64,000 nt of DNA from Belliella buryatensis (GTDB lineage Bacteria; Bacteroidota; Bacteroidia; Cytophagales; Cyclobacteriaceae), in NCBI RefSeq assembly GCF_900188245.1, contig NZ_FZOK01000011.1, positions 1-64,000 on the forward strand, read 5' to 3'. The first letter of the stretch is position 1. Each line of letters starts with the position of its first letter. Positions 8,892 through 47,843 of this stretch are shown one piece after another. A model generated the notes under the pieces. That model was not told where the DNA came from and made no database searches. It was given only the letters and a program-made list of their open reading frames with translations. A program made the position numbers and the translations under genes.

Positions 8892-9290
8892 TGTGCAAGC
8901 TGGCTTGTCGCCGTCCCGCTTCTTGGCGGGAAGGAGGAAAGTCCGGGCAACATAGAGCACCATACTTCCTAACGGGAAGGTATCAAGTTGGTGACGACTT
9001 GATAACAGATAGTGCCACAGAAAATATACCGCCCCGATCCGATCGGGGTAAGGGTGAAAAGGTGGGGTAAGAGCCCACCGCCCTGGTAGTGATATCAGGG
9101 GCAGGGCAAACCTTATGGGTTGAAAGACCAAATAGGTCCCGCACCGGATTCAATTTCGGAAAAGGTGGCTCGTCTTTCTGCGGGATGGGTAGGTTGATTG
9201 ATCCCGACTGTGAAGTCGGGACTAGATAAATGACAGGCACTCTTTTTGTCTGACAAGAGGAGTACAGAACCCGGCTTATAAGCTTGCACA
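8892..9290 (+). ncRNA. rnpB: RNase P RNA component (bacterial class A)
   Basis: Hallmark conserved blocks are present: GAGGAAAGTCCGGGC near the 5' end, ACAGAAAATATACCGCC, GGTAAGGGTGAAAAGGTG, and the 3' block AGTACAGAACCCGGCTTA. The P1 helix is a perfect 10-bp pairing of TGTGCAAGCT (8892-8901) with AGCTTGCACA (9281-9290) and sets the ends. The 399-nt length fits an A-type RNA. A CTTTTTATTT tract follows P1 and probably ends transcription. The product is the catalytic subunit that matures tRNA 5' ends together with RnpA. Overlapping reading frames on both strands here are not genes. Confidence 0.97.
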
Positions 9291-9321
9291 CTTTTTATTT
9301 AAATAAACCAAAAACTGAAAT

Positions 9322-31855: not shown

Positions 31856-32809
31856 TTAAAAGACCTCTTTTGCAATCTTATAAGTCGCGTCAGCCTTACT
31901 CATGGTGTAGTAATGCAGGCAAGGAGTCCCAGCTGCAATCAACTCTCTACTTTGCTGGATCGCCCATTCGATTCCGACTTGCTTGACATCTGCATTGGTC
32001 CTGCATTTTTCTAAGTCATCCATCAGTGCATCTGGCAAATCAAGAAAGAAAGTCCTCGGTAACATCGTAATCTGCCCCAAAGTTGTAATAGGCTTCAAGC
32101 CTGGTATGATCGGAACTGTAATTCCCAAGTCCCTAACTTTCTTGACAAAATCAAAATACTTCTCATTATCAAAAAACATCTGTGTGACGATGTACTCAGC
32201 ACCAGCATCTACTTTTTCCTTGAGATGCTTGAGATCAAATTTTAAGCTTGGCGCTTCAAAATGCTTCTCAGGATAACCTGCCACACCCACACAAAAATCT
32301 GTCTGAAAGCCTGTTTCAGTCTCTTCATGCAGGTATTTCCCCTGATTCATCCCTATAATCTGAGCTACCAAGTCCTTGGTAAATGCATGCCCATCGGGCT
32401 CTGGCACAAACTTATTCTCACTTTTAGGAGCATCTCCTCGCAAAGCCAGCACATTCTGCACACCAATAAAATTCAGGTCAATCAATGCATTTTCTGTCTC
32501 TTCCTTTGTAAATCCCCCACATAACAAATGTGGTACTGCTTCTACCTGAAATCGATTCATGATCGCAGCACATATCCCAACAGTGCCAGGACGTTTTTTG
32601 GTACTGACTTTTTCAAGCAGGCCATTGGGATGCTTTTTGTAAATGAACTCCTCTCTATGATAGGTCACATCCACAAAAGGTGGCTGAAACTCCATCAAAG
32701 GCTCAATTCCTTCACAAAGATCCTTGAGACTTTGCCCCTTCAAAGGAGGTAAGATTTCAAAAGAGAAAAGTGTTTTCTCAGCTTGAGAAATATATTCTGT
32801 AATTTTCAT
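31856..32809 (-). CDS. metF: Methylenetetrahydrofolate reductase
   Basis: The 317-residue protein matches MetF: FSFEILPPLKG near residue 16 (the family's FEFFPP motif), DVTYHREE (about 48), FVPEPDGHAF, VGVAGYPEKHFEAPSL (about 175) and YIVTQMFFDNEKYFDF (about 209-224). It uses FADH2 from NAD(P)H to reduce 5,10-methylene-THF to 5-methyl-THF, the methyl donor for methionine synthase. It is 90 bp downstream of metH on the same strand, so it should be in the same transcript and under the SAM riboswitch. Confidence 0.95.
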   Translation of the reverse strand: MKITEYISQAEKTLFSFEILPPLKGQSLKDLCEGIEPLMEFQPPFVDVTYHREEFIYKKHPNGLLEKVSTKKRPGTVGICAAIMNRFQVEAVPHLLCGGFTKEETENALIDLNFIGVQNVLALRGDAPKSENKFVPEPDGHAFTKDLVAQIIGMNQGKYLHEETETGFQTDFCVGVAGYPEKHFEAPSLKFDLKHLKEKVDAGAEYIVTQMFFDNEKYFDFVKKVRDLGITVPIIPGLKPITTLGQITMLPRTFFLDLPDALMDDLEKCRTNADVKQVGIEWAIQQSRELIAAGTPCLHYYTMSKADATYKIAKEVF

Positions 32810-32899: not shown

Positions 32900-35596
32900 T
32901 TAAGATTCTTGAATATTAAATGATGGTGAATATGCCAAATTTGGAGAAAGCCACTTTTCTGCTTGTTCTTGGCTGACACCTTTTCTTCTAGCGTAATCTT
33001 TGACTTGATCCTCTCCGATTTTTCCTAGTCCGAAATACTTGCTCTCAGGATGCCCAAAGTAAAATCCACTTACCGAAGAGGTAGGGTACATGGCAAAACT
33101 ATCCGTCAAAGTGATTCCTATACTTTCTTCTACTTGCAACAAGTTGAAGAGCGTTCGCTTCTCGCTGTGCTCTGGACAAGCAGGGTAACCTGGAGCAGGT
33201 CTGATTCCTGTGTAGGTTTCCTTGATCAGCGCATCATTATCCAGGTTTTCATCCTTAGCGTAGCCCCAAAGTTCCTTTCTTACCAATTCATGAAGATATT
33301 CCGCTCCAGCTTCAGCGAGTCGATCGGCTAGTGCTTTGAGCATGATATCATTATAGTCGTCTCCTTTTTCTTGAAACTCCTTCAGCTTCGTCTCGATCCC
33401 CCAGCCAGCAGTCACTGCAAAGCCCCCTAGGTAATCTGTTTGATCTGGGTGAATATAATCAGTTAAGGAGCGATTAGGCACACCTTTGCCTTTTTTACCC
33501 TGTTGTCTCAAGAAATGAAAACTTACTCCATGCCCTGGAAGTACTAAGTCATCTTCCACACGATCCACAGGGAATAGTCCCACTACTGCCTTAGCTTGAA
33601 GCCATTTCTCAGCAATGATTTGATCCAGCATGTCATTGGCCTCTTTGAAAAGTCGCTGTGCTTCTTGACCTACAACTTCATCTTTGAGGATTTTAGGGTA
33701 TTTGCCCGAAAGCATCCATGTGCTGAAGAAAGGGGTCCAATCGATGTATTGCCTCAAAATATTCAAGTCCAAATCTTCCAACACAGTGGTTCCAAGTTGA
33801 GAAGGCACCACAGGCTGGTAATGCTCCCAATCAATAAATACTGGATTAGCTTTGGCTTCTTCATACGTTGCCATTTGCTTTACTTGTTGCTTAGCTTCGT
33901 GCTCGATTCTCAGTTGTCTATACGTTTCCTTGATTTGCTTGTGATAAGCTTCTTTGGTCTCTTCAGAGATGGACTCACCTGCTATGGGGACAGATTTGGA
34001 TGCATCCGTTACGTGAATCACTGTTCCAGAATATACAGGGTCAATTTTGACAGCTGTGTGAATTCTTGAAGTCGTAGCCCCACCGATGAGCAGTGGAATT
34101 TGAAGGCCTTGGCGCTCCATCTCAGCAGCTACATGAACCATCTCGTCTAAAGACGGTGTGATCAGACCACTCAATCCAATAATGTCAACTTTATTCTTGA
34201 CCGCTTCATCGATGATCTTTTGCGCATCTACCATCACACCTAGGTCGATGATTTGATAGCTGTTGCAAGCGAGTACTACTCCCACTATGTTTTTACCAAT
34301 ATCATGCACATCACCTTTCACAGTGGCCAAAAGTATCTTCTTGATGCTACTTTGCTCTTCATTGTAATCCACATCTCCTACTTTTGGCATGAAGGGCTCT
34401 AGGTAAGCTACGGCTTTTTTCATCACCCTGGCAGATTTCACTACCTGCGGCAGAAACATCTTACCTTCTCCAAAAAGATCCCCCACCACATTCATCCCGT
34501 CCATAAGAGGTCCTTCGATGACTTTGAGCGGATTTTTGAGTTCAATCCTAGCTGCTTCTGTATCTTCGATGATGTAGTCTATGATTCCTTTGACCAATGC
34601 ATATTCTATTCGTTTAGACACAGGCTCTTCTCTCCAAAGTTCCGCTGCTGCCTCTTTTTTATCAGAAGCCTTCACCGTCTCGGCAAATTCCAATAAATCT
34701 TCTGTAGCCGAATCATGCCTATCAAAAAGCACATCTTCTACTTTTTGAAGCAAGTCTTTTGGAATATCATCATAGACTTCTAGCATCGTCGGGTTGACAA
34801 TTCCCATATCCATTCCATGCTTGATGGCATGATAGAGAAAAGCTGCGTGCATAGCTTCCCGCACAGGGTTATTCCCTCTAAAAGAAAAACTCACATTACT
34901 CACTCCTCCGCTGACTTTGGCGCCAGGGAGATTTTGTTTGATCCATTGGGTTGCATGGAAAAAATCTAAAGCGTTTTTCCTATGTTCTTCCATTCCAGTA
35001 GCAACTGGAAATATGTTTGGGTCAAAGATGATATCCTGAGGATTGAACTTTACCACATTAACGAGAATATCATAGCTACGCTTACAAATGTCGATTCTAC
35101 GTTGGTAGGTATCCGCCTGACCCGCCTCATCAAATGCCATGATCACCACAGCTGCACCAAATTTTTTGATAGTCTTGGCTTGGTGAATAAATTCAGTCTC
35201 TCCATTCTTCAAACTAATGGAATTTACAATCCCCTTGCCCTGAATACACTTGAGGCCTGCCAAGATTATCTCCCAGCGGCTACTATCGATCATGATTGGA
35301 ATTCTACTGATCTCAGGCTCAGAAGCAATCAAATTGAGGTATTTTTGCATTGCAGCTACACCATCAAGCATCCCTTCATCCATACACACATCTAATACCT
35401 GAGCTCCTCCACGAACTTGCTCTAATGCTACATCCAGTGCCTCATCATATTGCCCATTGAGAATTAATCTGGCAAACTTCTTAGACCCTGTGACATTGGT
35501 TCGCTCTCCTATATTGACAAAGTTGATTTCAGGTGTAAAAACCAAAGGCTCCAACCCCGAAAGCTTCATCACATCTATATTTTTGATTTTACTCAT
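32900..35596 (-). CDS. metH: Methionine synthase, pterin/cobalamin/activation part of split MetH
   Basis: The 898-residue protein carries the second to fourth modules of B12-dependent methionine synthase. The pterin-binding domain starts [17 protein letters not shown] (about 27-43). The cap and B12 domain contains [15 protein letters not shown] (about 425), whose His ligates cobalt. The SAM-binding reactivation domain has [14 protein letters not shown] (about 800-813) and [15 protein letters not shown]. The homocysteine-binding module is a separate upstream gene whose stop overlaps this ATG by eight bases. The split layout is common in Bacteroidota, so it is not a frameshift. The SAM-I riboswitch upstream fits. 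Confidence 0.95.
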
Positions 35597-36632
35597 CTGA
35601 ATCGTTTACAAATTCTAATTTCCTTGGACTATACTTTGCTGCTGTCTTAGCCAAAGCAGCAATATGGTCTGGTGTAGTTCCACAACATCCTCCCAGTATA
35701 TTGATCAAACCATCTTTGAGAAACTCCTCCACCTGACCCGACATCTCTGCTGCATCTTGATCATATTGACCAAACTCATTAGGCAATCCTGCATTGGGAT
35801 ATGCACTGATATTGAAAGATGCATTTTCTGAAAGCACTTTCAGATAAGGGCGCAATTCTTTGGCACCAAGTGCACAATTTAGCCCCACACTGAATAGGGG
35901 TATATGGGATACAGATATCAAAAATGCCTCCGTGGTCTGACCAGACAAAGTCCTGCCTGACGCATCAGTGATCGTACCAGAGATCATTACTGGAATACCT
36001 CCATCTTTAGGATCTAGTGGTAAGCCTTTTTCTTCAAAAACCTCCTGAATAGCATAGATAGCGGCTTTGGCATTCAGTGTATCGAATATAGTCTCCACTA
36101 AAATGATATCAGCACCTCCGTCAAGGAGACCTTCTACTTGCTGCTTATAAGCTGCTGCAAGTTCATCAAAAGTCACAGCTCGATAACCAGGATCATTCAC
36201 ATCTGGTGATATAGAAGCCGTCCTATTAGTTGGCCCCACTGCTCCAGCGACAAACCTTGGCTGATCAGGGGTCTTCTCTGAATATTTTAAAGCGACCTCT
36301 TTGGCAAGCTTCGCAGATTCATAATTGATCTGATAAGCTAGATGTTCTAAACCATAGTCAGCTTGGGCAATGGTAGTCCCGCTGAAGGTATTGGTTTCGA
36401 TGATATCTGCACCTACTTCAAGGTAAGCAGCATGAATGGCTGTGATAATATCAGGACGGCTGAGGGAAAGTAAGTCATTGTTACCTTTGAGTGGCTTTGG
36501 GTGATGCTTCAACTCAGGAGTTCTGAAATCATCTTCAGTGAGTTTATATCGCTGGATCATGGTACCCATGGCTCCATCTAGGATAAGGATTCTATTTTGT
36601 GATTGGTTGAGAAGTAACTCGGTTCTATTCAT
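35589..36632 (-). CDS. Homocysteine S-methyltransferase subunit of split MetH
   Basis: The 347-residue protein is the N-terminal homocysteine-binding TIM barrel of methionine synthase. [15 protein letters not shown] begins near residue 17, [15 protein letters not shown] near 80, zinc Cys in [14 protein letters not shown] near 250, and the paired zinc cysteines in [16 protein letters not shown] near 315-325. It transfers the methyl group to homocysteine together with the partner encoded just downstream. An eight-base overlap couples the two genes. It is the first gene after the SAM-I riboswitch at 36707-36806. Confidence 0.93.
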
Positions 36633-36706
36633 GTCTGTCGCTATCTATTCAAAAACCTATGCGAGCAAGAACCGGAAGAAAAAAGATTTTTGAATCTAAT
36701 CTACCG

Positions 36707-36806
36707 CTCATCTTTTCCCGAACTCAATTCGGAATGGGAGTTAGCACCTTGCTGATTCAGGTTGCTAAGACGTCTCAGGGCCCTTCCCTCGGTCTTTCTC
36801 GATAAG
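36707..36806 (-). promoter_or_regulatory. SAM-I (S-box) riboswitch before the metH/metF operon
   Basis: On the minus strand the leader reads CTTATCGAGAAAGACC, then GAGGGAAGGGCCC, TTAGCAACCT, AAGGTGCTAACTCC and finally GAAAAGATGAG. These are the conserved S-box blocks in the right order. The P1 helix pairs CTTATC (36801-36806) with GATGAG (36707-36712) with one wobble pair. It lies 75 bp before the first metH subunit ATG. Downstream, a weak 5-bp hairpin with AGATT/AATCT arms before TTTTTT may act as the switching terminator. When SAM is high, methionine synthesis should be turned down. Confidence 0.93.
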
Positions 36807-36926
36807 CAAGTCCAAAGGTACTGCCTAATCTTCAATAATATCAACTTTTTTAAAAAATCTTTGTCAACGTAGAGAATTTGACAATAAACTACATCGAAAT
36901 GAAATGATTTAACAATAAAAAAGCGA

Positions 36927-38231
36927 TTATGGCCTGATTCCTACTGTGAAGTGTAGATAAGAATTTGACATATACTGATACATAGGCACGCTGGCCAGGC
37001 GATACCTACTTAGCGGAACTTCATAGCCTCCGTGCACAGAAAAGAGTAAGTTGAAGACATTCTCAGAAGTGAAAGGAATACCATAAGCAATATAAAGCTC
37101 AGGCTTTGCCATCATTCCTGCATTTCTCAAATACCCATCAAAATCAGGCTCCTCAAAAAGTCTTGGAAAGTCAGGTTTGATATTATTGGTAAGCGTATAT
37201 CTAATATTAGCATAACCAAGACCTGCCAATCCACCTATTTCGAAATTTTTTCGCTCAAAGAATTTATACCCTGCATTCCCGTACATCCTTACACTGTTGA
37301 GGGTATGGGAGTGATTTTCTTTCGCCTGACCTTTCATCCCTAGATTATAAAGATCCATGCCATAGAGCCAACCTTTGGACTCACCAAGAATTTTGATACC
37401 CCAATTATTAGGTCGACCTTCGAAAGCTTCTAATCCATTTGCTTCAAGAGATTCATTGAACCGATTAGGCTGCGTAAAATGAAACCCCGTCAATATCTGA
37501 GCAGAAAGAGAGGCGTCACGATAGAAGAAGTTTCGATCTGGAAGAGAAATTCCCGTACCAACTCTGAAAAAAGCGCCACTCTGTACATTCCCAAATCGAA
37601 TTCCGTTCAATTCCCATGATTCTTCAAATGGACTGAAAGAGTAGCCAAACTTTGCCATCACTTCAAAAACCTCTTCTCTTCCAGGAATGTCTAAATCATA
37701 ACTCATCTGAAATCCTATTTCTGTCAATAGACCAGTAAAATACCTTGATCCTTTATGAATATTACCGTCTCTCAAGATAAATCCATGCTGAGGTTGTTCC
37801 AGAAATTGATTGATATTTTGAGCGGTATTTTCCCGCAACATCTGAAAGTTCAAAAAGCCAGAGCCTAAAGACATGTAATGTATAAACTGAAATCGACCCT
37901 CTTCTGTCAAGGCATAACCAACATTGAGCAAAGCACGGGTTGACCTGTAATCAATGTCATATCCATTGAAAGTAGATTTAAGACCTGCATTTTGATAAAT
38001 TTCAAATCCTAGGATAAAGTCATTATACCTTGTTTGATAACCCATCCCTAGATTAGAATATCCATTTCGCATGGGGGTGAGCCCTTTATTAGCCAACATT
38101 TCATTGAATAGTCTTAGATTGGCTCCTGTGTGCCCATAGGTCACATAGAAGGTAGATCTATTCCCTTCATTATTTTGGGCAAAGGCTCCAAGAGAAAAAA
38201 AGAAAATAAAAACGAAAACAAGATTTTTCAT
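36927..38231 (-). CDS. Outer-membrane barrel protein, unknown function
   Basis: The 434-residue protein has a Sec signal peptide (about 1-19, ending GAFAQ). The rest is strand-rich with aromatic girdles (YVTYGHTG, LGMGYQTRY, GYKFFERKNF, LHFTVGIRP), as expected for a barrel of 14 or more strands. No plug or TonB-dependent region is present. The frame opens three codons earlier, but MKNLVFVF is the natural signal-peptide start. The gene sits alone between the metH leader and the hybrid kinase gene. I do not recognise the family. Confidence 0.65.
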   Translation of the reverse strand: MKNLVFVFIFFFSLGAFAQNNEGNRSTFYVTYGHTGANLRLFNEMLANKGLTPMRNGYSNLGMGYQTRYNDFILGFEIYQNAGLKSTFNGYDIDYRSTRALLNVGYALTEEGRFQFIHYMSLGSGFLNFQMLRENTAQNINQFLEQPQHGFILRDGNIHKGSRYFTGLLTEIGFQMSYDLDIPGREEVFEVMAKFGYSFSPFEESWELNGIRFGNVQSGAFFRVGTGISLPDRNFFYRDASLSAQILTGFHFTQPNRFNESLEANGLEAFEGRPNNWGIKILGESKGWLYGMDLYNLGMKGQAKENHSHTLNSVRMYGNAGYKFFERKNFEIGGLAGLGYANIRYTLTNNIKPDFPRLFEEPDFDGYLRNAGMMAKPELYIAYGIPFTSENVFNLLFSVHGGYEVPLSRYRLASVPMYQYMSNSYLHFTVGIRP

Positions 38232-38289: not shown

Positions 38290-41200
38290 TCAAACATTAA
38301 GGTATTTGATGATTTTGGCATAGAGGTTATCTGGATTGAATGGTTTTGGAATGTAGTCATTCATCCCTACAGCTTCTAGCTGATCTTTTACCTCCAACAA
38401 AGATGATGCTGTTAGTGCAATGATAGGAAGATTCCTTATTGAGACATCTTTATGAGCACGGATAAATTCGCCCACTTCAAATCCATCCTTCTCTGGCATT
38501 TGCAAGTCTAATAGAATCAAATCGAATGATTGAGATAGCACAGCCTCTATGGCTTCATTACCATCGTTGGCCATGATGACTTCTTTTACTCCCCACTTAT
38601 TCAAAAACTTCTTGATCATAATTTGATTCACCAAGTTATCCTCAGCAACGAGAATTTTGGCATGAGACAAATTTTTCTCAGTATTCACTTTTTCTTCTTT
38701 GCTCTCAAGCAATTGAATATCTGGTTTTTCAAACCCTATCTCAAAAGAGAACATAGTTCCGCCGTGGGGCATTCTGTCCACTTGTATCTGTCCGCCAAAT
38801 AATTCTACTAATCTTTTCACAATGGCCAATCCAAGTCCAGTACCTCCATATTTGCGGGTAGTTTCTGCACTTGCTTGTGTGAAGGCTTCAAAAATACTCC
38901 CCAATTTTTCCTTAGGAATCCCTATTCCGCTATCTTCAAACTCAAACCTAATTTTGACCTCATTTGTAGTTTCCTCTAGGTTTTTCAAATGAATTCTTAC
39001 AAACCCCTTTTCGGTAAATTTGATCGCATTTGAAATCAAGTTATTCGCAACCTGTGCCAGTCGAACTGGATCTCCCATTACCACCTTAGGAAGCCTGCCA
39101 TCCACGTCAAAACTGACTTCGAGGCTCTTTTCTCTTGTCTGATAAGTATAAGAATGAATGATGCGATTGAAAACCAAAGAAAGATCAAAGGCAACTCTTT
39201 CCAATTCTATTTTTCCGGATTCTATTTTACTGTAATCCAAAATATCATTGATTAATCCAAGTAGATTTTCAGCAGAAAACTGAAGGGTTCTCAAATTTTC
39301 CAATTGATCAGGCCTCGGCTCATCTTCTATTAATAAATGTGCCATTCCTATAACTGCATTCATTGGAGTCCTGATCTCATGACTCATGATAGACAAGAAT
39401 TGAGATTTGATGGTAGATGCTTTCTCTGCTCGATCTTTGGCATGAAATAGTTCGCGCTGAGCTTCTTTGAGTTTTGTGATATCTCGGGCAATCCCCGTAT
39501 AATGTCGGATATTACCCATTTCATCTTTGATCAACCTACCATTAGAGCTAAATACCCGATAATCACCTGATCTGTGCTTTAGCCTGTATTCTAGGTATTG
39601 ATTCACTTCAAAAAAATCAGTAGAGGCAGATTTCAAGATATCAGAAAACACCATCAAGTCATCTTCGTGGAGAAACTCTGTCAGTTTCCTACCTGTGACT
39701 TCTTTATATTCGTAACCCAAAAACTGCTTCACATTGGGAGACACATAGGTCAACTCCATATCCAAGGATAGGGAGAAAATGATCTCAGTTGACTCTTCTA
39801 CCAGCGTCCTATACTTTTCCTCACTTGTCCTGAGATTTTCCTTAGCTTCGTATTCTTCGTTGATATCTCTTACTATACCCAATGCATATTCTACTTCTCC
39901 GTCATAAACGATCGGTCTAACAGTCATTTCATAGACCCGCTTTTTATAAAGTAAGGTTTTTTGCACAAACTCTCTCTTTTCCAAGGCTCTGATTACCGCA
40001 GGCTTGATTTCGTGAAGATTGTACTTATGGATTTCTTCGAGTGACTTCCCCTCAAAATCAGCAGAAGACATGCCCCAATTCCCGAAATTTGTCCCTTCCG
40101 CCACGATATAAGTGAGATTTTTGTCAATCAGGAAGACATTCGTCAAAGGAATGTTTGCAGCAAGGACTCTATATCTTTGTTGTGAACGGATAATTTCTTC
40201 TCTATTTTTTTTGCGCTCGGTAATATCTTGAAGCAAGCCTTCATGTAAGATAATATTTCCCTGAGAATCATATACTTCTTGCGTTTTATCTTCCACCCAG
40301 CGATAGGTGCCATCTTTTTTACGAATTCTATATTCTCCAGAAAATGCTGGTACTCCTTTCCCATCTTTTTTAGCATAATGATATTCCACCAATTGCTCTG
40401 CGTCATCAGGATGAATCAAATCCAAAATACTCACTCCACTAGCCAGTAGAAAATCTGCTTGATATCCAAATTGCTTGATATTCTCAGTGATGTAGACCAA
40501 TCTAAAGTGATCATTGGGGTCCACTGTAAAAAGAATTGCAGAACTATTCTCCACGATCATTTTAGCCTTTTTAGCCAAATCCTGCTGTTTAAACAATTGA
40601 GATAAGTTTCTAATCAAAAAAGAAAAACCAATGGGCTCTTTCAAATCATTGCAAAAAACCTGTACAGATAATTCATAGGGGTCAGTTTTTCCTTTGATAT
40701 TTTTTAAGACAAGTTCTTTTCTAAATTCATCTTTTCCATCAAGTTTTTGTAATATTTCGATCAAATCAAATTCCTCCTGAAAATTAAAATCGAACAATTC
40801 AGTGATCTTTCCTTCAAACTTGGTCTTCACTTCCAATTGACATTCCATAAAAGCTGCTTCATTCATATAAATGACTTTCAACTGATTGTCAGTCACATAA
40901 ACTGCATCATTAACTTGCGCAAGAATCTGTGATTGGAGTTTGAGGTATTTCTCTGCATCACGCTTATCAGTGATGTCAGTACAGTAACCGTAGATCTCAA
41001 AGCTTGATGTGCCTGGAATATTCCTTACCTCTATCGTGTAGCTAATATACTTGGTCTCTTCAGCACCGATGAGGTTGAATTCTCCTGAGATAGAACTACG
41101 CTTATTAATTGCCTGGTTGATATTGTCCAAAAATCCAACTCTATCAGCTTTATCAATTTTTTTGATCAGTTCAGTAACTGATGCAGACCCAACATGCTCG

Positions 41201-42606
41201 TCTAGTCCAAATAGAATATTTAAACCTTTAGAGAAGAAGAGTCTATTCTTAGAATTACTGTATCTCCAAGAACCAGATTTGGCAAGCAATTCTGTCGAAG
41301 TCAGTAAGTTTTCATTTCGTTCAAGACGCTTCTTGATAGACCTATTGATAAAAGTACCCGCATACACATCTCCAAGCTGTCGTAGTACATACTCATCCTT
41401 CTCGTGCCATGCTCTTGCTTGCCCTACAGCATCTAGCCCAAAGAATCCAATCAATTTATTCTCAGAAAAAATCGGTATAAGGATCACTGATTCTATCCCT
41501 TGTTGCAAATAGATTTCTCTTTCATAGGCGAATTTATCATCCATTTTGGACACTTCTGGAATGATAAAAATTTCCCCTTCCTTGAGAGACTTGATCGTAA
41601 GTAGATCATCCGTGATCTGTATACTCTTCATGAATTCCATCTGCGGCTCAACTCCGTCAGCCACCCACTCATAAGCATACTCTATCTCTCCTTTGACTTC
41701 ATGGAAAAGGAAAATATAAGCACGATCTGCTTTTTCAAATTCTCCCAACATACGCAAGGAATCGTTGAATACCTCGTCTAATTGCTCTTGCGTCGCATTT
41801 ACAAATTTTTTGGAAATTCGATTGATCAGCCGCTCTAATTCATAACGCTTTTGAAGTGATTTCTCTGCTTTCTTGTAGTCTGTGATATCCCGAGCACTGA
41901 ATAGTATTCCTCTAATCTGTGGATCCTTGAGAAGATTCCTTCCATAACTCTCTATGTAAATTTTTTTTCTTCCTGGAATTTTGATCCAGAAGTCAAAATT
42001 CACCTCTTCTTCCGTCCCCAAAAGTTGTTCGAAATCACCAGTTACAATTTTCAAAATACCTTGATTGATGAAATCTATATAGGTTTTTCCTAATACTTTT
42101 TCAGGTTCAACACCTAATTTCTCAATGATAGAGGAACTGATGAATTTGTACATCCCTTTTTCATCCAAAATCACCACCATATCATGGTTATAGCGCAAAA
42201 TGCTCTTGACCAACTCAAGATCCGCGTTTGCTGACTTTGAACGAGTAGCCATCTCAGATATTTCCATGATATCTTTGATCAATCTACCTTTGACAAAGAG
42301 TAACCTATCTGATTCCCCTTTTGGCATGCTTACAAAAACCCATTCGAAACTTCTTAGGTTACCAGATTTATCTTTAAGAGATTTGATAATTTCCACTTTC
42401 GGTAAGTCACCATCAAGAAAAAATTTGTTAATTTCTGATTCAATTGTATCTGCCTCGAAAAAATCATGAAATCCTTGGACATTCAGATCAAAATTATCTT
42501 TGAAATACTGATTGAGATAGACAATTCTATCAGGTGCAAACACCAAAATAGGTTCATTTACTTGATCAAAAAAACTAATTAAGTCTACTGGGGTGAATTC
42601 GTTCAT
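38290..42606 (-). CDS. Soluble multi-PAS hybrid histidine kinase
   Basis: The 1438-residue kinase has no membrane segment. Domains in order: PAS (about 1-115), PAS (about 130-250), GAF (about 262-430), then five more PAS-like units to about 1080, several with ITDYKKAEK-type PAC ends. HisKA has FLSIMSHEIRTPMNAVIG (phospho-His, about 1100), the HATPase has NLISNAIKFTEKG and GTGLGLAIVKRLV (about 1205-1315), and the C-terminal receiver has LLDLQMPEKDG (about 1370) and KPF. It must sense cytoplasmic cues such as redox, oxygen or small molecules. An ATG upstream at 42699 would add 31 unrelated residues; 42606 (MNEFTPVDLI) is preferred. The S9 peptidase gene is divergent. Confidence 0.9.
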   Translation of the reverse strand: MNEFTPVDLISFFDQVNEPILVFAPDRIVYLNQYFKDNFDLNVQGFHDFFEADTIESEINKFFLDGDLPKVEIIKSLKDKSGNLRSFEWVFVSMPKGESDRLLFVKGRLIKDIMEISEMATRSKSANADLELVKSILRYNHDMVVILDEKGMYKFISSSIIEKLGVEPEKVLGKTYIDFINQGILKIVTGDFEQLLGTEEEVNFDFWIKIPGRKKIYIESYGRNLLKDPQIRGILFSARDITDYKKAEKSLQKRYELERLINRISKKFVNATQEQLDEVFNDSLRMLGEFEKADRAYIFLFHEVKGEIEYAYEWVADGVEPQMEFMKSIQITDDLLTIKSLKEGEIFIIPEVSKMDDKFAYEREIYLQQGIESVILIPIFSENKLIGFFGLDAVGQARAWHEKDEYVLRQLGDVYAGTFINRSIKKRLERNENLLTSTELLAKSGSWRYSNSKNRLFFSKGLNILFGLDEHVGSASVTELIKKIDKADRVGFLDNINQAINKRSSISGEFNLIGAEETKYISYTIEVRNIPGTSSFEIYGYCTDITDKRDAEKYLKLQSQILAQVNDAVYVTDNQLKVIYMNEAAFMECQLEVKTKFEGKITELFDFNFQEEFDLIEILQKLDGKDEFRKELVLKNIKGKTDPYELSVQVFCNDLKEPIGFSFLIRNLSQLFKQQDLAKKAKMIVENSSAILFTVDPNDHFRLVYITENIKQFGYQADFLLASGVSILDLIHPDDAEQLVEYHYAKKDGKGVPAFSGEYRIRKKDGTYRWVEDKTQEVYDSQGNIILHEGLLQDITERKKNREEIIRSQQRYRVLAANIPLTNVFLIDKNLTYIVAEGTNFGNWGMSSADFEGKSLEEIHKYNLHEIKPAVIRALEKREFVQKTLLYKKRVYEMTVRPIVYDGEVEYALGIVRDINEEYEAKENLRTSEEKYRTLVEESTEIIFSLSLDMELTYVSPNVKQFLGYEYKEVTGRKLTEFLHEDDLMVFSDILKSASTDFFEVNQYLEYRLKHRSGDYRVFSSNGRLIKDEMGNIRHYTGIARDITKLKEAQRELFHAKDRAEKASTIKSQFLSIMSHEIRTPMNAVIGMAHLLIEDEPRPDQLENLRTLQFSAENLLGLINDILDYSKIESGKIELERVAFDLSLVFNRIIHSYTYQTREKSLEVSFDVDGRLPKVVMGDPVRLAQVANNLISNAIKFTEKGFVRIHLKNLEETTNEVKIRFEFEDSGIGIPKEKLGSIFEAFTQASAETTRKYGGTGLGLAIVKRLVELFGGQIQVDRMPHGGTMFSFEIGFEKPDIQLLESKEEKVNTEKNLSHAKILVAEDNLVNQIMIKKFLNKWGVKEVIMANDGNEAIEAVLSQSFDLILLDLQMPEKDGFEVGEFIRAHKDVSIRNLPIIALTASSLLEVKDQLEAVGMNDYIPKPFNPDNLYAKIIKYLNV

Positions 42607-42713
42607 CTTGGAAAATAATCTTAGCTTCGATTCAGATAGGATGTACAATATAAGCTTTGCGACTAAACTACAACATTTTCTCTTAAAACATATTTGCAAC
42701 TAAAATTAAAATA

Positions 42714-44873
42714 ATGTTCCAAAAAACAAAAACCCTATTTGTGCTATTCCTGCTGCTTTGGCAATACAGTATCGCACAAGAAAATGACTTGATTCAGTTG
42801 ACTGATCTGACCAAAATCATCACTACTTCTTCACATCAAATTACCCCTGATGGTAAGCAGGTAGTTTTTGTAAAAAACTTTGTGGAGAGCAAAGGAAATG
42901 ATCAGTATAGCTACAAAAGCCAAGCTTTTATAGCTGACCTTACAGCACCATTCGCAACTAGACCTTTGACTTCTGCAGAGTACAATGTCTCTTCTATTGC
43001 ACTTTCTCCAGATGGCAAGCATCTGGCATTTGTAAGACCCAAAGACGGTAAGGCTCAAATCTGGATACTTCCAATGAACGGAGGGGAAAGTCAAGTGCTA
43101 ACTAATGAAAAAAATGGCGCAAGCAGTCCTCAATGGTCTCCTGATGGTAAGAAAATATTATTCTCCTCTACCTTCCCTATTTGGACTGTGGATGGAAGGC
43201 CTGAGTGGGAACACCAAAGACCTGGCAGAGAATATGGTGACGAACCAAATTATAAGGCAATCAATGCTGGAATTGGCAAGGAGGAAATCAAACCGAATCC
43301 TGATGGAAACTTGGAAGAACTCCGTGCCTGGTTGGCAAAAAATGCAGCCAAAAATGATCCAAGGGTTATAGATCGCTTAAATTTCCTTGGCGAGAAAGAC
43401 TTGAGTCCAGACCTTTTCTTCTCTCATCTAGGCATTTATGACCTCAATACTGAAAAATCTGAGATAATCACCCAAGGATTCCAAAGTTACTTTGGGGCTA
43501 CTTGGTCTCCTGATGGAAACTATATTTTAGCGTCTTCATTAAAAAATGAGGAGCATCCAGACCTAACATCACATGCTGAAATCTGGAAAATTGACCTAAA
43601 AACTAAGGCTTCTGGGGTATTTTTCAAATTGGATAATCATAGGGTCGGCAACCCTTCTTTCTCTCCTGATGGAAAATGGTTACTTATCAATGGTCAAAAC
43701 ATAGAAGAGCCTAGTTATAACCAAAGTATGATCGGTGTGATGAAACCTGACGGCTCTGGCTTCAAATGGCTTTCCGAAAATCTTGACAGAAGCATCTCTA
43801 GTGGTCAATGGACAGCAGATAGCCAATCAATCTACTTCACGGGAGGCAATCAAGGAGGTACTTCACTCTGGAAAGTCAATCCAATTAATGGCAAAATCGA
43901 CCCCATTATCACCGGGCCAATAGGTGTGGGTAACCTGAACATCGTAGGGCAAAAAATGGTCTATAGCCTGATAAAAATCGAAAATCCTTCTGAATTTTAC
44001 GTGGCTGACCTTGCAAACAAGTCTCCACAACAAGTGAGTAAATTCAATGAAGGCTGGCTAGCTGGTAAGAAAATTTCCAAACCAAAAGCACATCAAATTC
44101 AAACACCTGAAGGTTTCACCATCGATTATTGGGTAATGGAGCCAGTGAATAGAAAAGAAGGTGTCAAATATCCAACAGTGCTTCAGATGCATGGTGGGCC
44201 TTCTGCTATGTGGGGTCCGGGTGAAGGATCCATGTGGCATGAATTCCAAGTCATGACAGCCATGGGTTATGGAGTAGTCTATGCCAATCCAAGAGGAAGC
44301 GGTGGCTATGGCAAAGCTTTCCAAAAAGGCAATTATAGAGATTGGGGAGACGGTCCTGCTGCGGATGTCCTAGGATCACTAGATGATGCGACCAATAGAT
44401 ATGACTGGATTGACAAGGATCAGTACTTCCTGACAGGAGGTTCCTATGCAGGCTATTTGACTGCTTGGATAGTCGGACATGATCACAGATTCAAAGCAGC
44501 ATTTTCTCAGAGAGGTGTTTACGAACTGACTTTTTTCCTTGGTGAAGGAAATGCATGGAGATTGGTTCCAAATCACTTTGGGTATCCATGGGAAGAAGGT
44601 GTGAAAGAAATCATGGATTATAACAGTCCACAAACTTACGTGGCTAATATCCAAACGCCTCTATTGATCAAGCATGGCGATGTGGATTACAGAACTGGTG
44701 TCCGTCAATCTGAATTGCTCTACAAGAGCTTAAAAATCCTCGGTAAACCAGTAGAGTATGTCAGATATCCAGATGAAGGTCACGAGTTATCAAGGTCTGG
44801 GGCTGTACATAGGAGAATAGACAGAATCGGACGTATCATGGAGTTTTTTGAACGCTATGTAGCCCACCCATAA
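42714..44873 (+). CDS. S9-family peptidase (prolyl oligopeptidase type)
   Basis: The 719-residue protein has a signal peptide (about 1-21, ending SIAQ), a TolB/WD40-like propeller with SPDGKHLAF, SPDGKKILF and SPDGKWLLI repeats, and a C-terminal alpha/beta hydrolase. The catalytic Ser lies in GGSYAGYL (about 578-585), Asp in HGDVDYRTG (about 658) and His in DEGHEL (about 690). It should be a periplasmic or surface exopeptidase or oligopeptidase acting on short peptides. A second S9 gene follows 9 bp after its stop, so they probably share a transcript. The large hybrid kinase is divergent. Confidence 0.92.
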   Translation: MFQKTKTLFVLFLLLWQYSIAQENDLIQLTDLTKIITTSSHQITPDGKQVVFVKNFVESKGNDQYSYKSQAFIADLTAPFATRPLTSAEYNVSSIALSPDGKHLAFVRPKDGKAQIWILPMNGGESQVLTNEKNGASSPQWSPDGKKILFSSTFPIWTVDGRPEWEHQRPGREYGDEPNYKAINAGIGKEEIKPNPDGNLEELRAWLAKNAAKNDPRVIDRLNFLGEKDLSPDLFFSHLGIYDLNTEKSEIITQGFQSYFGATWSPDGNYILASSLKNEEHPDLTSHAEIWKIDLKTKASGVFFKLDNHRVGNPSFSPDGKWLLINGQNIEEPSYNQSMIGVMKPDGSGFKWLSENLDRSISSGQWTADSQSIYFTGGNQGGTSLWKVNPINGKIDPIITGPIGVGNLNIVGQKMVYSLIKIENPSEFYVADLANKSPQQVSKFNEGWLAGKKISKPKAHQIQTPEGFTIDYWVMEPVNRKEGVKYPTVLQMHGGPSAMWGPGEGSMWHEFQVMTAMGYGVVYANPRGSGGYGKAFQKGNYRDWGDGPAADVLGSLDDATNRYDWIDKDQYFLTGGSYAGYLTAWIVGHDHRFKAAFSQRGVYELTFFLGEGNAWRLVPNHFGYPWEEGVKEIMDYNSPQTYVANIQTPLLIKHGDVDYRTGVRQSELLYKSLKILGKPVEYVRYPDEGHELSRSGAVHRRIDRIGRIMEFFERYVAHP

Positions 44874-44882
44874 TTAAAACCA

Positions 44883-47843
44883 ATGAAAAACAGAACAATG
44901 AAAAAACAGCTATTTTATTTCCTGTTTGCATTTCTCTTCATTTTTGAAGCTAATGCGCAGGACAAATCCGAACCTCGTCCAATGGACTGGAAAGACATCC
45001 CCTCTTGGAAATCCATTTCCAGCAATAGTGTTAGGATGTCTCCCGATGGCAAATGGATGGCCTATGCTATGCTACCTGTAGAAGGCGATGGGGAATTGAT
45101 TATCCAAAAAACAGATGATCCAAAATCAAAAAAGACTTATGCAATTGGTTCTACCAACTTTGCGAGCCTAAGCTTCAGTGAAGATAGCAGATGGATAGCC
45201 TTCAAAGAATATCCAAAAGAGAAAGAAAAAAAAGCAAATAAAGGCAAGCCTCTTCCTGAAAAAGTAATCCTATTGGACTTAAAGGAAGATAAAAAGTCTG
45301 AATTTGAAAAAGTAGCCAACTTCTCTTTCAATGGAAAAGCCGCTTCTCACTTGGCACTAAATCTTACCAAAGAAGGTACAAATGGTGATGCTAAAGGTTC
45401 TGATTTACTTATGGTACAATTGAACTCAGGTAAAAAACAGAATCTAGGTAACGTCCTGGAGTTTTCTTTTAATAAGTCAGGGTCACACTTGGCCTATGTA
45501 GTCGATGCTGCTAATCAATCTGGCAATGGAATTTACCTGATGAATATGGCCAGCAATAGCACGCAAGTCTTAGACAGTGATGCAGCATCGTACAAGTCCA
45601 TAAATTGGACTGAAAATGGGGATGCTTTTGCTTTGCTCAAAATGGTCAAAGACAAAAAATATAAACAAGATCATGGTAAATTGATCGGTGTCAAAAACCT
45701 GAATAATCCACAATTGACAATCTATGATCCTGTGAAGGATAGTGTCAATTTCTCAAAGGACTACACCATCAGCCCAAACAGAAGACCACAATGGTCTGAG
45801 GACTTAAATAAGCTATTCTATGGCATACATCCGCTTGTTCTTGCCAAAAAAGAAGATAAAAAAGAGGACAAAAAAGAAGTAGATCAAGACTCTGTCAAAG
45901 CAGCTGAGGCTGAGAAATTGGCGAAAATTATGGCTGACACTTCTATCAAATCTATTGCTGATCTTCAAAAAGCGATCGCAAAAGCTGACAGTACCAAATC
46001 CAAGCCAGCAACTTCTAATGGAGATTTGACAAAGCCTGATATGACCATCTGGCATTGGCAAGACAGCAGACTGCAGTCCAGGCAGCAAGTGCTAGAAAAT
46101 CAGGACAAAAACTACAGTTTCTGGGCTATGTATGATGTGAAGTCAGGTAAGCATATTGTACTTCAGGACAGCAGCATGAAAGAGTTGACCTTGATGCCTC
46201 AGGAGAAATTTGCACTCGGAGCAGATCAGAGTGCTTATGAACTGGACATCAACCTTGATGGACAGAATTATAGAGATATTTATGTAGTTGACCTTTCCAA
46301 TGGTGAAAGAAAGCAACTATTTGAAAAATTCTATCTTCCTTCATTCGCTTCCTATCCAAGATCATCACCTGATGGGACTAAAATGTTATATGCATATGAT
46401 GGACATTTCTACATCTATGACTTGAACAACGAAAGCAAAACCAATATTACTGAATCCATTCCTGTCACCTTTGTCAATGAAGAAGATGATCACAATGTGA
46501 TCAAACCGATGCAGAATGCTTTGGGATGGAGCAATGACAGTAAATATGTCTTATTGAGAGATGGCTGGGATATCTGGCAGGTTCCTTTGAACCCGAAGGA
46601 AAAAGCTGTGAATCTAACCCAAAACGGCAGAAAAGAAAACATCAGATACCAAAGCAGATTTGTCTTAGATGATGAAGAAAAAGGCTACGATTGGAAGCAA
46701 ACTCAGTACTTCAGAAGCTACGGAGAGAATTCTAAAAAGAGTGGAATTGTCTCTATAGAACCAGGTAAAGCAGGATTGAAAACAGGTGCTAGGTCTTTGA
46801 TTTGGGAAGATGCCAATATCAATAGGTTTACTAAAGCTAAAGATGCTCCTGTCTATTTCTTCACAAAAGAGACATTCAATCAACCTACCGAATACTATCT
46901 CACCGATGCCCAAATCAATCAACAAACTCAGCTGACAGAGAATACGCCTGATGCCTCAAAATTTGTATGGTCATCTGGAGTGAGATTGGTAGATTATACT
47001 TCAGACAAAGGAGCCGAACTTCAAGGAGCTCTTTTCCTTCCGGCCAATTATGAAGAAGGCAAGAAGTACCCTACTATCATTTATTATTACGAGAAACTTT
47101 CTCAAACCTTACATAATTATAATGCTCCGGGATTTAGTGGTACAGGCTGGAATCCTAATATCTACACAAGTAATGGTTATGCGGTATTTATTCCAGACAT
47201 CGTCTATACTATGGATGATCCAGGAATGTCTGCAGTATGGTGTGTCTTACCAGCAGTGAAAGAAGCCATCAAAACAGGTGTAATCGACGAGAATAGAATG
47301 GGACTTCATGGCCATTCTTGGGGAGGTTATCAGACTTCCTTCTTGATTACACAAACTGACATGTTCAAAGCTGCAGCAGCTGGAGCACCACTGACCAATA
47401 TGATCTCCATGTATGACTTGATCTACTGGAATACTGGTGGCGGCAATATGTCCATCTTCGAAGCTTCTCAAGGAAGATTCACAGGAGGCCCGTGGGAAAA
47501 CTGGGGATCCTATCAAAGAAACTCACCCGTATATCATGTCAAAAACGTCAAAACACCACTTTTGATGTTGCATAATGACAAAGATGGGGCTGTTGATTTC
47601 ACTCAGGGTATTGAATATTACAATGCGCTAAGAAGATTGAAAAAACCTGTGATCATGGTTCAATACAAAGGTGAAAATCACGGACTGTCTAAGTTGGAAA
47701 ACAGAAAGGATTACAGCGTAAGAATGATGGAATTCTTCGACCATCACCTCAAAGGAAAAGAAGCACCAGACTGGATTGCTGATGGCGTTGAGAAACTCAA
47801 GCTGGAAGAACATTTAGAGACAAGAGTATTCGGGAATAACTAA
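44883..47843 (+). CDS. S9-family peptidase with K/E-rich insertion
   Basis: The 986-residue protein has a signal peptide (about 1-27, ending EANAQ; a second ATG at 44898 is an equally good start), a long propeller region, and an alpha/beta hydrolase at about 690-970. The catalytic Ser is in GLHGHSWGGYQT (about 808), Asp in HNDKDGAVDF (about 900) and His in GENHGLSK (about 930). A Lys/Glu/Asp-rich stretch (about 320-375; EDKKEDKKEVDQDSV) interrupts the propeller. The protein is 267 residues longer than its neighbour. The pair of secreted S9 enzymes suggests dipeptide or oligopeptide scavenging. Confidence 0.9.
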   Translation: MKNRTMKKQLFYFLFAFLFIFEANAQDKSEPRPMDWKDIPSWKSISSNSVRMSPDGKWMAYAMLPVEGDGELIIQKTDDPKSKKTYAIGSTNFASLSFSEDSRWIAFKEYPKEKEKKANKGKPLPEKVILLDLKEDKKSEFEKVANFSFNGKAASHLALNLTKEGTNGDAKGSDLLMVQLNSGKKQNLGNVLEFSFNKSGSHLAYVVDAANQSGNGIYLMNMASNSTQVLDSDAASYKSINWTENGDAFALLKMVKDKKYKQDHGKLIGVKNLNNPQLTIYDPVKDSVNFSKDYTISPNRRPQWSEDLNKLFYGIHPLVLAKKEDKKEDKKEVDQDSVKAAEAEKLAKIMADTSIKSIADLQKAIAKADSTKSKPATSNGDLTKPDMTIWHWQDSRLQSRQQVLENQDKNYSFWAMYDVKSGKHIVLQDSSMKELTLMPQEKFALGADQSAYELDINLDGQNYRDIYVVDLSNGERKQLFEKFYLPSFASYPRSSPDGTKMLYAYDGHFYIYDLNNESKTNITESIPVTFVNEEDDHNVIKPMQNALGWSNDSKYVLLRDGWDIWQVPLNPKEKAVNLTQNGRKENIRYQSRFVLDDEEKGYDWKQTQYFRSYGENSKKSGIVSIEPGKAGLKTGARSLIWEDANINRFTKAKDAPVYFFTKETFNQPTEYYLTDAQINQQTQLTENTPDASKFVWSSGVRLVDYTSDKGAELQGALFLPANYEEGKKYPTIIYYYEKLSQTLHNYNAPGFSGTGWNPNIYTSNGYAVFIPDIVYTMDDPGMSAVWCVLPAVKEAIKTGVIDENRMGLHGHSWGGYQTSFLITQTDMFKAAAAGAPLTNMISMYDLIYWNTGGGNMSIFEASQGRFTGGPWENWGSYQRNSPVYHVKNVKTPLLMLHNDKDGAVDFTQGIEYYNALRRLKKPVIMVQYKGENHGLSKLENRKDYSVRMMEFFDHHLKGKEAPDWIADGVEKLKLEEHLETRVFGNN

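Follow-up and report, generated by a model that had tools for sequence, protein, structure and literature searches.

The locus analysed here, in a 64-kb stretch of the Belliella buryatensis genome (the window), raises the question of how a riboswitch located upstream of metH might control its gene. Since Bacteroidota mostly initiate translation without Shine-Dalgarno sequences, the mode by which a riboswitch would act on translation in these organisms is not obvious. In Firmicutes, the textbook S box acts by terminating transcription, and the 3' strand of its P1 helix takes part in an antiterminator. Outside Firmicutes, translational control is given as commonest by Barrick and Breaker (2007, PMC2258182), where a sequestor/anti-sequestor logic is described, and translational control as such is therefore expected here. 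In a study on Flavobacterium johnsoniae (PMC6847099), Bacteroidetes mRNAs are reported to lack Shine-Dalgarno sequences and to have initiation tuned by mRNA structure, and the start region in the window, which has no Shine-Dalgarno sequence, fits that report. Among the matches listed from the open PubMed Central literature, no description of a Bacteroidota SAM-I expression platform, or of a SAM-I riboswitch combined with a cysteine leader peptide, was found. We propose, with a probability of about 0.7, that a SAM-I riboswitch shuts down translation of the metH-metF mRNA at high SAM levels; SAM binding, the direction of the response and translation as the regulated step are what we infer from the comparisons below.

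The aptamer and its operon

The preliminary description had placed a SAM-I riboswitch at 36707-36806, upstream of a metH/metF operon, and had named an Infernal search with the SAM model as a check. A cmscan of the whole window returned two Rfam matches at or above the gathering score, an RNase P RNA (class A, 8892-9294, plus strand, 294.7 bits) and the SAM-I riboswitch (RF00162) at 36808-36705 of the minus strand, which scores 75.9 bits against a gathering score of 44.4 (E 5.1e-16, model positions 1-108 complete), so that the earlier coordinates, which came with no strand, were right to within 2 nt. The helices P1 to P4 are present around the conserved core, with 30 canonical pairs in the model alignment, including 8 of 8 in P1, and with non-standard positions flagged in the third helix. 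The ligand of the SAM-I family, bound selectively, is S-adenosylmethionine (SAM), and further hallmarks of the family are a pseudoknot between the P2 loop and J3-4 and a kink-turn. The elements of the locus, in order of the transcript, are the following.

36813-36820, minus strand: TACCTTTG, fits TAnnTTTG, the -7 element of Bacteroidota, from the sequence; would start the RNA at about P1
36705-36808, minus strand: SAM-I (S-box) riboswitch aptamer, complete model (RF00162)
36798-36807, minus strand: X1 (GCUUAUCGAG), made up of the P1 5' strand and J1/2; candidate switching strand, from linker pairing beyond permuted controls and the J1/2 test
36705-36712, minus strand: P1 3' strand, GAUGAGCG, from the model alignment
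36679-36697, minus strand: AT-rich hairpin and U run, weak terminator candidate; hairpin not kept in all genus relatives
36656-36675, minus strand: Y, linker strand CCGGUUCUUGCUCGCAUAGG, putative partner of X1 (CUCG, bulged C, AUAGG) or of the start region
36636-36641, minus strand: X2a, GCGACA, adjoining the start codon upstream; predicted OFF-fold partner of UG and UCGC of Y (duplex, constrained fold)
36620-36626, minus strand: X2b, AGAACCG, metH codons 3-5; predicted OFF-fold partner of CGGUUCU of Y (duplex, constrained fold)
35589-36632, minus strand: metH N-terminal part, homocysteine methyltransferase, 347 aa (PF02574, E 1.8e-97)
32900-35596, minus strand: metH C-terminal part, 898 aa, with pterin-binding, two B12-binding and activation domains (PF00809, PF02607, PF02310, PF02965)
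31856-32809, minus strand: metF, methylenetetrahydrofolate reductase, 317 aa (PF02219, E 5.4e-70)

The next gene on the minus strand, after a gap of 72 nt, is metH, which is split in two ORFs overlapping by 8 nt and followed by metF. The best named match to the N-terminal part, 92% identical, comes from Belliella aquatica. Belliella is a member of the Cyclobacteriaceae, a family in which a split metH is common; fused forms exist too, as 21 of the matches listed lie in ORFs longer than 1000 aa. Because no match to the MetE domain PF01717 was found in the B. buryatensis genome, MetH looks to be its only methionine synthase. Elsewhere in the window, a 1469-aa ORF (38290-42699, minus strand) has by eye the look of a multi-PAS hybrid histidine kinase, and two adjacent large ORFs of 719 and 986 aa (42714-47843, plus strand) that of prolyl-oligopeptidase-type peptidases.

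In order to compare leaders across the family, in which a metH match is present in 144 of 146 genomes, 80 metH loci were scanned for RF00162, namely 70 from the family-genome matches (30 first loci and 40 from lower-ranked matches) and 10 named ones. The riboswitch was found upstream of metH in 77 of them, the three loci with no match being L186, L198 and L203, and after removal of a duplicate (L179, identical to L066) 76 distinct leaders remained. Start codons were set by rule, the in-frame ATG closest to where the match begins being taken first, failing that a GTG, and failing that a TTG (the start of L182 was shifted by 3 nt), and the starts used for distant relatives are accordingly inferred ones. 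Covariance score, gene content and this conservation together bear out the preliminary description and support the view that the element upstream of metH is a SAM-I riboswitch, which would bind SAM. The consensus of the Bacteroidota -7 promoter element is TAnnTTTG, and 52 of the 76 leaders carry it within 20 nt upstream of the aptamer, a count made without a chance control. Given this position just upstream of the aptamer, the RNA probably begins at about P1.

Pairing partners of the linker

Which strand of the leader might switch was approached through the energy of duplexes between the linker and its candidate partners in the 76 leaders, with partners swapped among related leaders as control. 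These permutations ignore phylogeny and are therefore rough, and with this in mind the linker strand Y pairs with its own start region at a mean of -13.38 kcal/mol, against -11.52 for permuted partners (sd 0.30), none of 5000 permutations being as low. Likewise, Y pairs with the P1 5' strand and J1/2 at -13.49 kcal/mol versus -11.07 (sd 0.24; 0 of 5000 as low), and if a longer Y is taken the means are -14.83 versus -12.18 kcal/mol, a level that again none of the 5000 permutations reached. For the P1 3' strand, pooled over the 76 leaders, the corresponding values are -8.46 and -8.57 kcal/mol, 3528 of 5000 permutations being as low, so that no excess pairing was found. The signal emerges from averages and is modest in single leaders. 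Swapped partners that pair equally well make up a median share of 0.28 (start region) or 0.23 (P1 5' strand), and this share falls to 0.05 or below in only 11 and 12 of the 76 leaders, respectively. The longest unbroken match between X1 and the linker has a mean of 8.2 against 6.2 in shuffles, and in 30 of the 76 leaders a match as long occurs in at most 5 of 100 shuffled linkers.

A more pointed comparison is offered by the J1/2 base, which is unpaired in the aptamer and is G in 40, A in 19 and C in 17 of the 76 leaders. The native base was replaced in silico by each of the other three and the duplexes with the linker were compared, with 20 draws per control. In 68 of the 76 leaders the strongest duplex with the leader's own linker is formed by the native base, whereas with a random other linker this holds for 20-36 of 76, and with the linker of another J1/2 class for only 1-8. 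The fit is 39 of 40 in the G class, 17 of 17 in the C class and 12 of 19 in the A class, the weakest. We read this co-variation of J1/2 and linker as an indication that the P1 5' strand acts as the switching strand.

The metH leaders fall into two groups, by eye rather than by count. In the group formed by Belliella, Algoriphagus and Cyclobacterium, the stem extends, again by eye, into the first codons of metH. Within the genus, the linker after P1 keeps an CCGGUUCUUGCUCG-AUAAG-like stretch, followed by an A/U-rich stretch before the AUG, and the AT-rich hairpin that precedes it varies; in the window itself, the X1-Y helix contains one bulge. In the distant group, the linker contains CUCUUUCUGG or GGCUCUCUGG, which match AGAAAGAG or AGAGAGC immediately upstream of the start codon or overlapping it (as in L177, L180, L185 and L197), and a Shine-Dalgarno-like GGAGGG is at times present (L066, L174, L201). 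Both groups include many leaders whose linker matches, by eye, UUAUCNAGA of the aptamer 5' end as well.

Folding of the leader and proposed mechanism

Folding with P1 either favoured or forbidden points in the same direction. Averaged over the 76 leaders, the probability that the start region (-15 to +15) is unpaired rises from 0.486 with P1 favoured to 0.584 with P1 forbidden, the region being more open in 70 leaders, with a gain above 0.05 in 46, and not opening in six. With shuffled linkers the gain is 0.025 (0.009-0.037 over 15 replicates). In the same P1-forbidden folds the probability of pairing between the 5' strand (X1) and the linker is 0.762, against 0.339 with shuffled linkers, and for the window leader (L135) forbidding P1 raises the unpaired probability of the start region from 0.45 to 0.71. 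X1-Y is absent from whole-RNA folding in several leaders, such as L059, L163, L168 and L175. The alternative stems covering the start region are thus predicted ones, drawn from computed alternative pairing and computed opening.

On this basis we hypothesize that SAM would stabilize P1, so that the 5' end of the RNA (X1) is held by the P1 3' strand and the free Y may pair on both sides of the metH start, with GCGACA and with codons 3-5, in 13 pairs in total. As the predicted pairs CGGUUCU/AGAACCG and UG,UCGC/GCGACA flank the start, the AUG itself would lie in a 9-nt bulge; it is computed to stay unpaired (0.85-0.94) when the window leader adopts the OFF fold, which counts against the proposal. 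Without SAM, Y would instead pair with X1, that is with the P1 5' strand and J1/2, the partner of X1 being CUCGCAUAGG; such pairing would dissolve P1 and make the metH start accessible to a ribosome that does without a Shine-Dalgarno sequence. The ligand-free minimum-energy fold of the window leader already consists of P1 and the OFF stem, at -49.6 kcal/mol, and a fold with X1-Y enforced lies 2.3 kcal/mol above it, at -47.3; the switch would therefore need to be near balance or be decided kinetically, during transcription.

The metH leader resembles the SAM-I/S box family (RF00162) in its full-length match of sequence and structure and in its location upstream of methionine genes. It appears to differ from known cases in that the P1 5' strand and J1/2 would be in use and in that the window start region carries no Shine-Dalgarno sequence. 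Compared with the Firmicutes S boxes, the metH leader has no terminator by the scan rule, and it is the P1 5' strand with J1/2 that matches the linker. With the translational riboswitches presented in PMC2258182 it would share an OFF logic based on mutually exclusive stems; in the SAM-I cases given there the ribosome binding site lies inside the 3' side of P1, whereas in metH a separate linker strand would cover the start region, in the window partly within the coding sequence. The metH leaders offer a testable answer to the question of riboswitch control in Bacteroidota, with the proposed switching strand named base by base, and platforms of this kind could go unnoticed where a hidden Shine-Dalgarno sequence or a terminator is what is looked for.

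Alternative modes of control

The sequence comparisons suggest that the start codon is covered by an alternative RNA strand rather than that transcription is stopped, and three other accounts have to be weighed against this reading. If control were transcriptional, SAM would let the AT-rich hairpin and U run at 36697-36679 act as an intrinsic terminator. A U run does follow P1 in the genus leaders, and in L144, L146 and L155 a longer AT-rich stem precedes a U-rich stretch. The weak terminator stem mentioned in the preliminary description stands as far as an AGAUU/AAUCU hairpin (36697-36684), followed by a U run to 36679, can be recognized; as a terminator it does not, since no intrinsic terminator was found by the scan rule in 36600-36930 and the hairpin is lost, by eye, in the close genus relatives L005 and L006. 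Terminator-like sites occur in 4 of 76 family linkers, against a mean of 1.2 and a range of 0-6 in shuffled ones, and an intrinsic terminator after P1 was rejected as a candidate; we regard transcriptional control as unlikely. The other option of the preliminary description, "translational control or an unusual switch", is the one favoured by the permutations, the J1/2 test and the folding.

A classic anti-sequestor, which the Belliella leaders had brought to mind, would have the P1 3' strand as switching strand: without SAM its GAGCGG would pair with CCG and UUGCUC of the linker, and with SAM it would be locked in P1. GAGCGG and CCG..GCUC both occur in Belliella and Algoriphagus leaders; across the 76 leaders pooled, however, the P1 3' strand fits its own linker no better than others (the 3528 of 5000 permutations given above), which leaves this candidate unsupported and slightly less probable even than the terminator. 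The block of translation might also be followed by Rho-dependent termination, so that the level of the mRNA falls too. Such coupling is known for other riboswitches, and Bastet et al. 2017 reportedly found a translation block coupled to Rho-dependent termination at riboswitches; we give this account no better odds than the terminator, and it is compatible with a translational OFF switch. A shared metH leader peptide was considered separately and rejected, as the frame starting at an AUG inside P1 (36711) differs between relatives, by eye in a few leaders.

Other SAM-I leaders and the metY upstream ORF

The aptamer itself is ordinary, as RF00162 has at least one match in 145 of 148 sampled family genomes and three copies in each of the genus genomes (8 of 8, B. 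buryatensis included). In B. buryatensis the three precede metH, metY and metZ, and the 24 genus loci likewise divide into 8 metH, 8 metY and 8 metZ; the names metY (metY-like, O-acetylhomoserine sulfhydrylase) and metZ (a related gene) were assigned here from the sequence. The metY leader of B. buryatensis, located outside the window (L001:1292-1610, minus strand; aptamer at C18:84726-84835 plus the following leader), has a SAM-I riboswitch and, directly after it, an upstream ORF (uORF) whose C-terminal end, CPMCR, is rich in cysteine; elsewhere (L205-L294) this end goes up to CCCCCC. In the genus a 34-codon ORF is present in 8 of 8 metY leaders, ending in CPMCR or CLMCR in seven and in CPMRR in L004.

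The family metY sample comprised 98 loci, of which six had no aptamer core by pattern; one of the loci so classed, L271, nevertheless matches RF00162, which indicates that the pattern misses some aptamers. By cmscan, RF00162 was confirmed in 56 of 60 metY loci scanned. As the uORF we took the first frame that opens with ATG 20-60 nt beyond the aptamer core, has 15 codons or more and closes upstream of metY; L290 has no such ORF, and 87 distinct uORFs remained after identical ones were removed. Cysteine accounts for 32% of the residues in their last 10 positions versus 2.3% of the rest, and at least three cysteines occur in the last 10 residues in 49 of 87, against 8 of 87 and 1 of 87 for the two other frames and 2.2% of shuffles. 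Some uORFs (L233, L269, L270) end in six cysteines, and others, such as L215, L216 and L241, have none in their last 14 residues. A search of NCBIfam with three of the metY leader peptides returned no family, even at E values as high as 1. In a class-wide sample, a cysteine-tailed uORF lies within 700 nt of metY in 16 of 24 loci, counted without a chance control and with one locus, L296, belonging to this family. Seven of these uORFs, from other families, have no SAM aptamer pattern (L295, L301, L302, L306, L313, L314, L315), and the peptide may thus be a module of its own.

The uORF starts 1-11 nt after the 3' end of P1 in 48 of 55 metY leaders examined, and formation of P1 could therefore block the uORF ribosome directly. 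We regard the metY leader as a candidate tandem of SAM riboswitch and cysteine leader peptide, and perhaps as a more interesting system than metH. It may be, although we hold the chances to be even, that SAM-I riboswitches of the family gate Shine-Dalgarno-independent starts in two ways: in metH the linker would choose between the aptamer 5' strand and the start region, and in metY P1 would end just before the start of the leader peptide, so that metY would respond to SAM by way of the aptamer and to the supply of cysteine by way of stalled ribosomes.

Similar arrangements are on record. Canestrari et al. 2020 reportedly described polycysteine uORF attenuators in mycobacteria; like the metY uORFs, these are short upstream ORFs encoding several cysteines, but the mycobacterial ones are said to be leaderless, whereas those of metY follow a SAM-I aptamer in Bacteroidota. 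A riboswitch beside a small uORF, as in the metY leader, is also found in the B12 riboswitches of Mycobacterium tuberculosis (PMC11260477), with another ligand and in another phylum; the metY uORFs often end in cysteine runs. Within Bacteroidota, one report gives hints that amino-acid operons of Flavobacterium psychrophilum are preceded by leader-peptide attenuators (PMC9723704), and another describes short ORFs in long leaders of Bacteroides thetaiotaomicron (PMC7366714).

The metZ SAM-I leaders of the genus (L003:1612-1902, plus strand, L012, L014 and L020-L024) also contain an open frame, of 44-96 codons, soon after P1 in 8 of 8; the peptides encoded have no clear conservation in the genus, as judged without statistics, and in L003 the frame extends beyond the metZ start. 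In a genus relative, a DUF805 RNA (RF03081, 63.7 bits) was detected at L010:2508-2577 on the minus strand.
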